Below, one piece after another: positions 44,120 to 64,000 of a DNA stretch of 64,000 bases (position 1 is the first letter of the stretch; every line of letters begins with the position of its first letter). The notes under the pieces are model-generated. The model saw only the letters and a list, made by a program, of their open reading frames with translations. It had not been told where the DNA came from and made no database searches. A program made the translations under genes and the position numbers. This stretch comes from Gottschalkiaceae bacterium SANA (lineage in GTDB: Bacteria; Bacillota; Clostridia; Tissierellales; GPF-1): the NCBI GenBank assembly GCA_036323355.1, contig AP028876.1, forward strand, positions 1,612,001 through 1,676,000. The letters run 5' to 3'.

Positions 44120-44122
44120 TCG

Positions 44123-44151
44123 AGAGCGGCTAAGACAGTCGTTCTTTTTTT
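44123..44151 (+). terminator. Terminator after the HAD phosphatase gene
   Basis: AGAGCGGCT pairs with AGTCGTTCT around AAGAC (two G-U pairs) and is followed by a T-run. Confidence 0.8.
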
Positions 44152-44160
44152 ATGATAAAT

Positions 44161-44203
44161 TGTGATGCTAATCACTGTATATATATTTATAAACCCATAT
44201 GAT
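44161..44203 (+). promoter_or_regulatory. Crp/Fnr-type box and -10 element before the flavodiiron gene
   Basis: TGTGA-TGCTAA-TCACT (44161-44176) fits TGTGA-N6-TCACx. TATGAT at 44198-44203 begins 29.5 bp from the box centre, placing the box near -41.5, a class II activator position. The same geometry occurs before pflB at 63706-63752. Confidence 0.75.
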
Positions 44204-44315
44204 AGAGATATCGAAAAAAGGGGATGAATAATAATAGTAGCCTAAATATCAAAAAACTAACATTTGAGAAATATGAACATGGTGTTGTTTTCGAAAATTA
44301 TAAAGGAGGTTCAAG

Positions 44316-45506
44316 ATGTTTCAAATTAATGAAAAAGTTCAATGGGTTGGGAAAATCGATTGGGAATTGAGAAAATTCCATGGAGACGAGTATTCCACGC
44401 ATCGTGGTTCTTCATATAATTCATACCTGATTCAAGACGAGAAAGTTGTTTTGATTGATACGGTTTGGCGTCCCTTTGCAAAGGAATATGTTGAAGAGTT
44501 GAAAAAAACAATTGATTTGAATCAGATCGATTATATCATTGCCAATCATGGAGAAATTGATCATAGTGGCGCTTTGCCTGAGCTGATGAGAGAAATTCCC
44601 GATGTGCCAATCTATTGCACGAAAAATGCAGTTAAATCGCTAAAGGGGCAGTATCACGAAGACTGGAATTTCGTAACCGTTAAAACTGGAGATACCTTGG
44701 ATCTTGGACAAGGAAAATTGGTATTTATTGAAGCCCCCATGTTGCATTGGCCTGATAGTATGTTTACGTACTATACGAAGGATGAGATTCTGTTCAGTAA
44801 CGATGCATTTGGGCAGCATTTTGCCTCTGAATTGATGTTCAATGATCTTGTGAATCAAGCTGAATTATATCAAGAAGCGACGAAATATTATGCCAATATT
44901 CTAACTCCATTTAGTTCGTTTGTAACGAAAAAGATTAATGAGGTTATGGGATTGAATGTGCCAGTCGATATGATTTGTCCATCCCATGGGATTATTTGGA
45001 GAGATAATCCTACACAAATCGTAGAAAAATATTTGGAATGGGCTGATAATTACCAGGAAAATCAAGTCACGATTATTTATGATACTATGTGGGATGCAAC
45101 CCGTAGGATGGCTGAAGAAATCGCTGCAGGGATTAAAGCTGTAGACCCTAGTTTGAATATTAAACTATTTAATGTTGCGAGCACAGATAAAAATGATGTG
45201 ATTGCGGAAGTATTTAAAGCCAAGATGGTTGTTGCGGGTTCGTCTACAATTAACAAGGGAATTTTGTCTGCGATGGCGGCCGATCTAGAAATTATAAAAG
45301 GATTGCAGTTGAAAAATAAGAAAGCAGCTGCTTTTGGCAGTTATGGATGGAGTGGGGAATCTCCAAAACAGATTCAAAAAGAATTAACAGAAGCTGGATT
45401 TGAGGTTTGGAAAGATCCTTTGGGTACGCTATGGAATCCAGACGAAGAGGCGCGCGAGACATGCAGGGAATTTGGGCGAAAATTGGCAGATTGGTTGAAA
45501 CCTTAG
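44316..45506 (+). CDS. fprA: Flavodiiron protein (A-type flavoprotein, O2/NO reductase)
   Basis: The 396-residue protein combines an N-terminal metallo-beta-lactamase domain with diiron ligands HGEIDH, LHWPDS, SNDAFGQHF and CPSHGI, and a C-terminal flavodoxin domain (TIIYDTMWDATRRMAEEIAAGI, SYGWSGE). It reduces O2 to water or NO to N2O, protecting anaerobes. No rubredoxin is fused or adjacent. The start follows AAAGGAGG. The Crp/Fnr-type promoter about 115-155 bp upstream suggests oxygen or redox control. Confidence 0.94.
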   Translation: MFQINEKVQWVGKIDWELRKFHGDEYSTHRGSSYNSYLIQDEKVVLIDTVWRPFAKEYVEELKKTIDLNQIDYIIANHGEIDHSGALPELMREIPDVPIYCTKNAVKSLKGQYHEDWNFVTVKTGDTLDLGQGKLVFIEAPMLHWPDSMFTYYTKDEILFSNDAFGQHFASELMFNDLVNQAELYQEATKYYANILTPFSSFVTKKINEVMGLNVPVDMICPSHGIIWRDNPTQIVEKYLEWADNYQENQVTIIYDTMWDATRRMAEEIAAGIKAVDPSLNIKLFNVASTDKNDVIAEVFKAKMVVAGSSTINKGILSAMAADLEIIKGLQLKNKKAAAFGSYGWSGESPKQIQKELTEAGFEVWKDPLGTLWNPDEEARETCREFGRKLADWLKP

Positions 45507-45589: not shown

Positions 45590-46408
45590 ATGCGAAAAAT
45601 ACAAAAACTATATAAGGGGAGGCGATCGAAAGTTGGTGCCGGAGTGAAGCTGATACGAGTTTTTAGTTTTTACGATGCGGAACGACTAGATCCATTTTTG
45701 CTACTTGATTATTTCGATTCCAAGAATCCGGATGAGTATAAGCGCGGGTTACCTTGGCATCCTCATCGGGGTATGGAGACGATTACCTATTTGATTCACG
45801 GCCGAATTGATCACGGTGACAGTCTCGGAAACAATGGTATAATCGAACCTTTGAGCTGTCAGTGGATGACTGCTGGCAGAGGTGTTTTGCATCAAGAGAT
45901 GCCTCAAAAAACACCGTGGATTTTAGGCTGTCAATTGTGGTTAAACCTACCAAAATCTAGGAAGTTAACAAATCCTGTATATCGGGAAATTACAGAAAAG
46001 GACCTTGCAATTTATGAAGATGATCAAGTTCATATAAAGGTGATTAGTGGTGTCTTTAGACATACAAAAGGACCCATTTGTAAAAAAAATAAGGAACTTA
46101 CATATTTTGATGTAACGGTATTTCCAGGCAAAACATTTTCGTGGAAAATTGAAAAATCAAAGCAATGTTTTATTTTAAGAATTGATGGTGAATTGTCCAT
46201 TGCAGGTGAGATTTTTAAGACGAGAGGTGCATTGTTGACCATGGAAGAAGAAATTCGTATAGAAACGCAACGTGGTGGGCGATTTTTCCTGATTGCAGCC
46301 GAGCCGTTGAAAGAGCCGGTGGCATGGCAAGGGTCGATTGTAATGAATACACAAAAGGAAGTAGAAGAGGCATACCACGATTTAGAAGAAGGCACTTTTA
46401 CTCGCTAA
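45590..46408 (+). CDS. Pirin family protein
   Basis: The 272-residue double-cupin protein has the pirin iron site in LPWHPHRGMETITYLI and MTAGRGVLHQEM. Prokaryotic pirins are linked to quercetin dioxygenase activity or to metabolic regulation such as inhibition of pyruvate dehydrogenase; which applies here is unknown. The start follows GAGGAG. It is a single-gene unit between terminators. Confidence 0.9.
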   Translation: MRKIQKLYKGRRSKVGAGVKLIRVFSFYDAERLDPFLLLDYFDSKNPDEYKRGLPWHPHRGMETITYLIHGRIDHGDSLGNNGIIEPLSCQWMTAGRGVLHQEMPQKTPWILGCQLWLNLPKSRKLTNPVYREITEKDLAIYEDDQVHIKVISGVFRHTKGPICKKNKELTYFDVTVFPGKTFSWKIEKSKQCFILRIDGELSIAGEIFKTRGALLTMEEEIRIETQRGGRFFLIAAEPLKEPVAWQGSIVMNTQKEVEEAYHDLEEGTFTR

Positions 46409-52810: not shown

Positions 52811-52932
52811 GACCAAAAGTCGATAAAAAGATCACAGAACCGCATGAATTCATATGCGATTTTGTGATCTTTTTCACATTATGACCAAAAAATGAGGAGT
52901 ATGAAGACAATTAAATGAGAATGACCAAAAGT
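52811..52932 (+). repeat. Three GACCAAAA copies upstream of the malate operon
   Basis: GACCAAAA occurs at 52811, 52883 and 52923. The last two are part of a 10-bp ATGACCAAAA repeat exactly 40 bp apart, and the first and third share GACCAAAAGT. Such phased repeats could bind a response regulator or activator. Confidence 0.5.
52826..52875 (+). terminator. Imperfect terminator after the Fpg-like gene
   Basis: AAAGATCACA (52828-52836 region) and TGTGATCTTT (52864-52872 region) are the outer arms, with CGCATGA/TCATATGCG inside; TTTTT follows. Confidence 0.75.
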
Positions 52933-62769: not shown

Positions 62770-63612
62770 ATGAAAGTTAGAATTGTAGTGGATACTTCTT
62801 GCGATTTGCAACCGGGTAGCGATTCAGAATTTGCATATGTACCCTTTGAGATAAAAGTTGGTGATGTGAGTTTTCATGATGATGAAAAGACGCAGATGGA
62901 ATTGCTTCTACTGATGAAAGAGGAGTCGACTGCCGCTAAATCTTCTTGTCCTTCACCGGCAGCATTTCTTAATACTTTCACTTGTGATGCGGAAGTGATA
63001 TTTGTTGTGACAATCTCGTCAAACTTAAGCGGCAGTTATAATAGTGCGAAAATTGCAAAAGAAATCTATTTAGAGGAGAATCCAGACAAGGACATTTTTG
63101 TGGTTGATTCCTTAAGTGCTTCTGCAGGAGAAACGGCTATTGCATACTATATTCAGGACGCATTAGAAGTAGAGCGTTTTCAAACGATGGAAGAACTGTT
63201 TCTTGCTACAAAAGCCTATGCAAAAACCGTCAAAACACTATTTGTATTAGAAGATTTATCTAATTTAGTGAAGAATGGACGAATGGGAAAACTGGCTGGT
63301 CTATTTGCAGCTTTTTTACATATTAAACCTGTTTTAGGGGATGATGGAAATGGAGAAATCGTTTTATATAAAAAGAGCCGGGGAACCAAGAAGGCTTTAA
63401 GGGACTTGATGACAGCAATAGAGGAACGTGGAAAAGATTTAAATCTAGAGGATCGAATCTTGTATATTTCTCATTGCAATGCAAAGCAAAAGGCTTTGCA
63501 GGTTAAAGCACTTGCTGAAGGACAGTTCTCTTTTGCAGAGATTAAGATTTTTGAAACCAATGGTCTCAGTACGGTCTATGCGGGAGATGGGGGCATTGTA
63601 CTTGCATTTTAG
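62770..63612 (+). CDS. DegV family fatty-acid-binding protein
   Basis: The 280-residue protein has the DegV N-terminal VVDTSCDLQPGSD, the phosphatase-like SISSNLSGSYNSAKIA-type loop (TISSNLSGSYNSA) and the C-terminal LVKNGRMGKLAG region with IKPVLGDDGNGEI. FakB-type members bind fatty acids for phosphorylation by FakA. ATG 62770 follows GAGGTGAG; GTG 62764 is less likely. Single-gene unit. Confidence 0.92.
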   Translation: MKVRIVVDTSCDLQPGSDSEFAYVPFEIKVGDVSFHDDEKTQMELLLLMKEESTAAKSSCPSPAAFLNTFTCDAEVIFVVTISSNLSGSYNSAKIAKEIYLEENPDKDIFVVDSLSASAGETAIAYYIQDALEVERFQTMEELFLATKAYAKTVKTLFVLEDLSNLVKNGRMGKLAGLFAAFLHIKPVLGDDGNGEIVLYKKSRGTKKALRDLMTAIEERGKDLNLEDRILYISHCNAKQKALQVKALAEGQFSFAEIKIFETNGLSTVYAGDGGIVLAF

Positions 63613-63613
63613 A

Positions 63614-63650
63614 AAAAGAGTCGAAATCTTCGAAGATTTCGACTCTTTTA
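63614..63650 (+). terminator. Terminator after the DegV gene
   Basis: AAAAGAGTCGAAATCTTCG and its exact complement make a 36-bp continuous dyad ending in TTTT. Confidence 0.92.
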
Positions 63651-63705: not shown

Positions 63706-63752
63706 AAATTGTGAGTGAAATCACAATTTTTCCTGAAAATATGTCGTATAAT
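63706..63752 (+). promoter_or_regulatory. Crp/Fnr-type operator and -10 element of pflB
   Basis: AAATTGTGA (63706-63714) and TCACAATTT (63721-63729) are exact arms around a 6-bp spacer, the TGTGA-N6-TCACA consensus. TATAAT is at 63747-63752, starting 29.5 bp from the dyad centre, so the box lies near -41.5. No good -35 box is present, as expected for activator-dependent promoters. Confidence 0.88.
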
Positions 63753-63793: not shown

Positions 63794-64000
63794 ATGAAAA
63801 ATCAGGAAAACTTTAACTCGGGGAAATGGCAAGAAACCATCGATGTACGAGACTTTATTCAAAAAAATTATACTCCTTACCGGGGTGATGAGGCATTTTT
63901 GACAGGAAAGAGTCAAAAAACAACACTTCTATGGGAAAAGGCGGAAAACCTGATTGCTGAGGAAATTAAAAAAGGCATTATTGGTGTCGATACGGAAACA
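63794..64000 (+). CDS. pflB: Pyruvate formate-lyase, N-terminal part (cut by window edge)
   Basis: The first 69 codons are present and open to base 64000. The N-terminus (FNSGKWQETIDVRDFIQKNYTPYRGDEAFL, quoted from residue 7 on) and GIIGVDTET are typical of PflB, which splits pyruvate with CoA into acetyl-CoA and formate through a glycyl radical. The start follows AAAGGGG. The Crp/Fnr-type promoter upstream fits anaerobic or redox induction. The radical site and activase gene are outside the window. Confidence 0.93.
   Translation, partial: MKNQENFNSGKWQETIDVRDFIQKNYTPYRGDEAFLTGKSQKTTLLWEKAENLIAEEIKKGIIGVDTET

Follow-up and report, generated by a model that had tools for sequence, protein, structure and literature searches.

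Introduction

At class II promoters, a dimeric activator is centred at about −41.5, over the −35 position. The FNR proteins of Escherichia coli and Bacillus subtilis act at promoters of this class, with a TGTGA-type box in B. subtilis, and have pfl as a target; the cysteines are N-terminal in E. coli FNR and C-terminal in B. subtilis Fnr. The promoters described here, which precede a flavodiiron protein (FDP) gene and pflB, resemble these systems in having a TGTGA-N6-TCACA-type palindrome at a predicted position of about −41.5 and no good −35 element, in the cysteine cluster of their candidate regulator, and in the presence of pfl among the targets. They differ in that the candidate regulator combines cysteines placed N-terminally, as in E. 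coli FNR, with a CRP-like recognition helix, and in that its predicted targets include a flavodiiron protein and the iron-centre repair protein RIC.

The HcpR regulons are a second point of comparison (Rodionov et al., 2005; PMC1274295). The part of that paper used here describes CRP/FNR-family regulators of anaerobes that control nitrosative-stress genes, with the motif wTGTGAnnnnnnTCACAw in Desulfovibrio; in contrast to the system proposed below, HcpR lacks the FNR cysteine motif, and its core target is hcp, not pflB or an FDP gene. The same part reports that in Thermoanaerobacter an orthologue of B. subtilis Fnr accompanies a CRP-like site at hcp.

Clostridial flavodiiron genes are also under redox- or oxygen-linked control, by OseR, SigB, and Rex in C. 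difficile and by PerR in C. acetobutylicum, but the factors named in the portion of the source used here are repressors and a stress sigma factor, and its main text contains 0 occurrences of FNR (PMC11481553). Activation of an FDP gene by FNR, as we propose, is opposite to the logic of the repressors OseR, Rex, and PerR. RIC is likewise governed by NO- or oxygen-responsive regulators (NsrR, DnrD, NorR, and SrrAB), whereas the sections of PMC9268430 considered here describe no direct FNR-box promoter before a RIC-FDP operon and propose that the effect of FNR on ytfE is indirect. A literature search found no FNR control of clostridial flavodiiron genes, a weak negative as subscription papers lay mostly outside its coverage. 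Promoters of this type are already known; the literature searched did not yield this target set.

Results

The FDP and pflB Promoters Share a Box and Its Spacing

We analyzed a window of 64,000 nucleotides from Gottschalkiaceae bacterium SANA, which corresponds to C1:1612001-1676000 of a 3.49 Mb genome (G000). The features relevant to this study are as follows.

44122..44146, + strand: intrinsic terminator of the preceding HAD-family gene, upstream of the FDP box and separate from it
44161..44176, + strand: TGTGATGCTAATCACT, FNR/CRP-type operator belonging to the flavodiiron promoter; three species of the genus share its ten core bases and differ in N6
44198..44203, + strand: −10 element TATGAT of the flavodiiron promoter; the 21-bp spacer is also found in G002, G001, L031, L032, and L034
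44224..44370, + strand: short open reading frame of 48 codons between promoter and FDP gene, overlapping the FDP start in another frame
44316..45506, + strand: flavodiiron protein of the anaerobic NO reductase/O2 reductase type; 721 bits with NCBIfam NF008887 (cut-off, 635)
52863..52878, + strand: look-alike box TGTGATCTTTTTCACA before the malic enzyme gene; 3' arm and tail of the hairpin at 52828-52871
63710..63725, + strand: TGTGAGTGAAATCACA, FNR/CRP-type operator belonging to the pflB promoter; G002 has the identical box and G001 has CGTGAGTGAAATCACT
63747..63752, + strand: −10 element TATAAT of pflB, 21 bp 3' of the box
63794..64000, + strand: start of pflB (formate C-acetyltransferase); the gene continues beyond the window end

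The FDP protein also scores above the cut-offs for the Pfam ODP and flavodoxin families. The 477 residues of PflB that were read (L007) give 715 bits with TIGR01255, for which the curated cut-off of 994 refers to the whole protein.

An earlier note on this DNA had proposed that the flavodiiron promoter, with its box and TATGAT, repeats the geometry of the pflB promoter some 19.5 kb away. This was borne out: both elements are present, the centre of the FDP box (44168.5) lies 29.5 bp from the first base of TATGAT (44198), the same distance separates the centre of the pflB box from TATAAT, and the two boxes are 19,549 bp apart. Neither promoter has a good −35 element (the best match is 3/6 at the FDP gene and 1/6 at pflB), which together with the 29.5 bp to the −10 element is the class II pattern, given a predicted start site. 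Transcription of the FDP gene would begin near 44210, so that the box centre would lie at −41.5. Neither box is needed as a terminator, because the preceding genes have hairpins of their own upstream of the boxes, in the case of pflB a strong one within 63609-63650.

Strong Matches Are Rare and Mostly Intergenic

The earlier note had also held that matches as frequent inside coding sequence as upstream of genes would mean that the pair was chance. We found 9 distinct places in the genome with an exact TGTGAN6TCACW (9 forward and 6 reverse matches; the reversed-pattern control gave 3 and 1). When the loci were read individually, 6 of the 9 proved to be intergenic, before the FDP gene, pflB, the malic enzyme gene, a DUF438 gene, a RIC-like gene, and a hypothetical gene (L001, with a poor −10), and 3 lay inside genes (L002, L003, and L008). 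Set against the noncoding share of 8.7% in the window, this distribution has a P of about 3e-5. Searched as a composite with up to 2 mismatches, the box, a 21-bp spacer, and TATAAT gave 5 genomic places and none in the reversed control; none of the 5 is in a credible gene, as the malic enzyme place is overlapped only by an antisense open reading frame of 123 aa. The outcome of the coding-versus-upstream comparison depends on match strength: the strong matches favour upstream positions, and composites with exactly 3 mismatches resemble background (32 sites in total, of which 25 were read at their loci and 18 of these were coding by a rough open-reading-frame rule). With up to 3 mismatches there were 37 matches compared with 21 in the control, and across 60 relatives the composite with 2 mismatches was weakly above control (302:228). 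The box alone, with 2 mismatches, was not above chance within the window (93 matches; shuffle mean, 110). Judged by the strong matches, the condition set in the earlier note does not refute the pair.

Identical letters at an identical spacing do not by themselves identify an operator. The malic enzyme site in the window is a perfect TGTGAN6TCACA with TATGAA at a 21-bp spacer (52863-52905), and yet it belongs to a hairpin (fold, −20.9 kcal/mol; z, −6.7) that terminates the preceding gene. In G001 and G002, the two relatives from the same genus, this hairpin is retained and the box is absent, with TGTGATCTTTTTATCA in its place. As the box is the 3' arm of the hairpin and is missing in both relatives, we count it as a terminator and reject the malic enzyme gene as a third member of the regulon.

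The second such site lies between the gene of the candidate regulator described below and an adjoining DUF438-hemerythrin-PAS gene (L004:1490-1526 = G000:C1:1294649-1294685). Its box and −10-like hexamer are kept in all three genomes of the genus, but AAAACTGTGA/TCACAGTTTT followed by a T run forms a terminator-like inverted repeat (−12.9 kcal/mol). The site is ambiguous, and may be the terminator of the FNR gene, an operator of the DUF438-hemerythrin-PAS gene, or both. The terminator form of these two sites is the reason that shared letters and spacing alone are no proof, and the statement in the earlier note that two promoters argue strongly for a regulon does not hold on its own.

The box AGTGATTAGAATCACA lies 88 bp before the RIC-like gene of G000 (TIGR03652, 43.5 bits, well below the cut-off of 204.7), and the hexamer at 21 bp, TAATAT, is weak (4/6). 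Among 13 ric loci, 9 strong ones were counted, and an exact box was present upstream in 1 of these, that of G000, and in none of the other 8; the 4 weak loci were scanned without a match and left out of the count. We also observed TATGACATTCGTCATA with TATGAT at 21 bp just 5' of another Crp/Fnr paralogue, L018 (G000:C1:692584-692626, L127); it is possible that this site serves self-regulation of L018 with another half-site.

The FDP Promoter Is Conserved in the Closest Clade

A box with a −10-like hexamer at a spacer of 21 is present in 6 FDP-promoter loci, namely those of the window, G002, G001, L031, L032, and L034. The sister species Clostridiales bacterium GPF-1 (L030) has TGTGATGGAGATCACT, 21 bp, and TATGAT; this is the same contig as G002:C90 and is one of the 6 loci. 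The FDP-type promoter of G001 reads TGTGATGGAAATCACT, 21 bp, TAGGAT. In an alignment of the three species of the genus (the window, L030/G002, and G001), the ten core bases of the box are unchanged and the N6 and the spacer have diverged.

In the metagenome-assembled genomes HGW-Firmicutes-3 (L031), LH_M70 (L032), and HGW-Firmicutes-2 (L034), an intact RIC gene precedes the FDP gene. The box in these genomes is an exact TGTGAN6TCACA, 87-88 bp upstream of the RIC start, and the hexamers at a spacer of 21 are TATTAT, TAATAT, and TAGTAT, respectively. The boxes of L031 and L034 are identical, and our counts across relatives ignore kinship. Between promoter and FDP gene, L030 (L030:2650-2980) has a RIC-like sequence without a long open frame, and the reading frame at 44224-44370 of the window may be what remains of a lost RIC gene, an N-terminal stub, judging by eye from its likeness to the L030 stretch and by the intact RIC in the same position in L031, L032, and L034. 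In G001 (L203, G001:C12 near 166715), the FDP gene has been lost from between the box and a pirin gene, which follows after 256 bp, and the sole FDP match in that genome is a 34%-identical paralogue. On this comparison, the box and TAGGAT of G001 read as an orphan promoter that was kept after the loss of the FDP gene.

In up to 1,200 bp upstream of 80 FDP loci of named relatives (90,910 bp), we found 4 exact boxes, those of L030, L031, L032, and L034, compared with 0 in the reversed control and 0 in a downstream stretch of 90,002 bp. The other 76 loci had no exact box in the upstream stretch scanned, which for L033 (Petrocella sp. FN5) was too short to tell. A scan of 250 bp upstream of the FDP genes of named relatives gave no exact box, because the promoter sits further upstream, as the L030 alignment and the intact RIC-FDP operons indicate. 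In the G-series genomes, 2 of 30 FDP loci had an exact box (G000 and G002 only; for G033 just 12 bp of upstream sequence was available). In the more distant G017, the FDP gene is preceded by TATGATTCAAATCACA, a box with one mismatch, and by TATAAT at 21 bp. On these counts, the link between FDP and box is real, and it is largely confined to the closest clade, since the exact boxes among the 80 loci are restricted to the four named above.

The pflB Box Recurs in Relatives

Some pflB match was present in 39 of 60 genomes; we used the 25 strong loci, with E values of at most about 1e-189, and excluded from the count 5 additional loci that belong to distant glycyl-radical enzymes. An exact box occurs within 450 bp upstream of pflB at 6 of the 25 loci (G000, G002, G035, G028, G019, and G052), with 0 matches in both the reversed and the downstream controls. 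Three of these boxes are followed by a full TATAAT, at 21 bp in G000 and G002 and at 22 bp in G035, and the other three by 4/6 hexamers (TAATAT at 21 bp in G028; TATCAA at 22 bp in G019 and G052). The near-match of G001 likewise precedes a TATAAT at 21 bp.

An FNR-Type Regulator in the Same Genome Fits the Box

G000 contains 26 HTH_Crp_2 matches, 13 of them over the cut-off and some in other families. We read 12 Crp/Fnr paralogues and 7 further weak HTH matches. One of the 12 paralogues, encoded at G000:C1:1293894-1294637, elsewhere in the genome from the FDP gene and pflB, has an R-E-x-x-x-R recognition helix (R-E-T-V-T-R) and a CxxCx4C cysteine cluster; the 7 weak matches had neither an RE...R helix nor CxxCx4C. 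This protein scores over the cut-offs for a cNMP-binding fold (PF00027, 81.6 bits) and a Crp-type helix-turn-helix (PF13545, 69.1 bits), and its residues 6-244 match the solved FNR structures 5cvr/5e44 (E 3e-19). The cysteines lie near the N-terminus, in CNQCRERYC, and a further cysteine, in AVCTIP of the effector domain, presumably aligns with Cys122 of E. coli FNR. At 94.4 of 228 and 105.7 of 300 bits, the protein falls below the NCBIfam cut-offs for Fnr and FnrL, and for that reason we describe it as FNR-like by anatomy and not as a member of those named models. In the CRP/FNR family, R180 and E181 track G3 and A6 of the motif, according to the part of PMC1274295 used here, and the RE helix of the regulator, read as recognizing TGTGA, fits this rule.

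Including the window species' own gene, we examined 30 regulator loci, which divide into 21 of a RET class (G030 among them) and 9 of a QET/KET class (G020 has KET). All 21 RET-class proteins read have CxxCx4C, and G032 and G043 lack a cysteine at the AVCTIP position. Six of the 21 RET-class genes (G042, G028, G039, G027, G017, and G054) and 0 of the 9 QET/KET-class genes have an exact box upstream at no more than 106 bp from the translated match, where about 0.0002 per gene would be expected (150 bp, 3-Mb genomes); the scan covered only 93 bp in G030 and 239 bp in G020. The FNR gene of G000 itself has no box upstream. Because only G054 has a 5/6 −10 hexamer at 21 bp, and the other 5 of the 6 do not, these boxes link the motif to the regulator without extending the shared geometry to it. 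The downstream control of the FNR loci gave 3 matches in 12,934 bp, the same number as the DUF438 sites, one of which follows the regulator gene in each of G000, G001, and G002.

In genome-wide counts, exact TGTGAN6TCACA compared with its reversed control stood at 70:35 across the 20 genomes with a RET-class FNR and at 46:56 across the remaining 40, which include G030 (RET class, 1:0) and genomes with no regulator read (Fisher P 0.002). In L032, the box lies between the RIC-FDP operon and a RET-class FNR gene that points away from it.

FDP genes also adjoin FNR-like genes in G056, G037, G033, and G020, all four of the QET/KET class. We considered whether homologues with a QETLSR helix use TTTGAN6TCAAA; genome counts lend this no support, at 90:71 against control in 8 such genomes and 315:209 in the 20 RET genomes. 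Single promoters in G020, G024, and G033 do look TTTGAN6TCAAA-like. Separately, in four relatives (G036, G006, G047, and G054) about 3 kb or less separates a small RIC-like gene from a gene with weak similarity to FNR (28-37% identity).

Discussion

We consider it likely, with considerable confidence, that the FDP box is a class II operator at about −41.5 that is read by the genome's own FNR-type [4Fe-4S] regulator, which would also control pflB. The box, its spacing, its conservation, the anatomy of the regulator, and the gene neighbourhood in L032 were observed directly; from them we infer binding by the regulator, its cluster, activation, and the sign of the effect. The CRP-like helix R-E-T-V-T-R would read TGTGA-N6-TCACA, and a dimer at −41.5 would sit over the missing −35 element, beside RNA polymerase at TATGAT or TATAAT. 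With the cluster intact (no O2 and no NO), pflB and the flavodiiron gene would be on, and damage to the cluster would turn both off, so that an O2/NO-reducing enzyme would be carried in advance as part of the anaerobic programme. The small RIC-like gene is probably under the same regulator, and the neighbouring DUF438-hemerythrin gene possibly so. The regulon is small.

The alternatives concern whether the sites are real, what bound protein would do there, and which protein binds. An accident, by which two palindromes and AT-rich hexamers came to be equally spaced, seems to us very improbable indeed. In its favour, the third box in the window that has this spacing is the arm of a terminator, and the 3-mismatch composites are background. 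The conservation at both sets of loci contradicts this explanation, with box and spacer kept in 6 FDP-promoter loci, the box kept at 6 of 25 pflB loci, and the reversed and downstream controls at zero. It is also unlikely that the FDP box is a repressor operator, at which anaerobic binding covers a −35 element and damage by O2 or NO releases the repressor, so that stress induces the FDP gene. A sigma-70 scan does place a rival −35/−10 pair over the box (TTGTGA at 44160 and TATATT at 44182, a 9-of-12 match), and the known control of clostridial FDP genes, in the portion of PMC11481553 drawn on above, includes anaerobic repression (OseR and Rex in C. difficile, PerR in C. acetobutylicum). Against this, TATATT is conserved in neither G002 nor G001, which keep the hexamer at 21 bp (TATGAT and TAGGAT), and the 21-bp geometry typical of activation is found in 6 of 6 FDP-promoter loci and at two exact pflB sites of the genus.

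There is a small probability, in our estimation, that the sites are real but are read by a different Crp/Fnr protein of the genome, an HcpR-like or cAMP/CRP-like paralogue that senses NO, redox, or carbon state. The many Crp-type proteins of the genome leave room for such a reader, and Desulfovibrio HcpR reads the same motif, as reported in the part of PMC1274295 used here. However, the R-E-x-x-x-R helix occurs in just one of the 12 paralogues read, and that one carries the FNR cysteines; HcpR proteins are described in the same source as lacking this cysteine motif, which the candidate regulator has; and the regulator that is divergent from the RIC-FDP genes in L032 is an FNR of the RET class. 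We therefore retain the FNR-type protein as the candidate reader of both boxes.

The proposal of a regulon linking oxygen/NO defence to pyruvate metabolism has partial support: both promoters are conserved, the same genome encodes a regulator that matches the box, and the box stands before 6 of 21 RET-class FNR genes. The part of it that stands less well is the word defence, with its implication of induction by O2 or NO, as the geometry and the FNR-type cysteines point instead to activation without O2. The regulon reading was right in kind, and its derivation from two sites was luckier than it appeared.

A wider proposal, which we put forward tentatively and hold at somewhat below even confidence, is that in this clade the flavodiiron gene and pyruvate formate-lyase are driven by an O2/NO-labile FNR activator, not by derepression of a stress repressor. 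The cell would be armed while anoxic and would lose supply when the sensor is damaged, and the promoter geometry would have outlived RIC in the window species and G002, and FDP in G001. The predicted sign, with a flavodiiron gene switched on in the absence of oxygen, is counter-intuitive. Many of these anaerobes have an FNR-type regulator, which thereby gains a concrete, conserved set of putative targets. A true operator can be told from a terminator arm of identical letters and spacing by a conserved core whose N6 and spacer diverge.

A pirin gene lies immediately 3' of the FDP gene in the window (45590-46408); the arrangement is the same in L030, and in G001 the pirin gene adjoins the orphan promoter. 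In Bacteroides fragilis, pirin transcripts increase upon O2 exposure, according to the portion of the source used here (PMC11304471).
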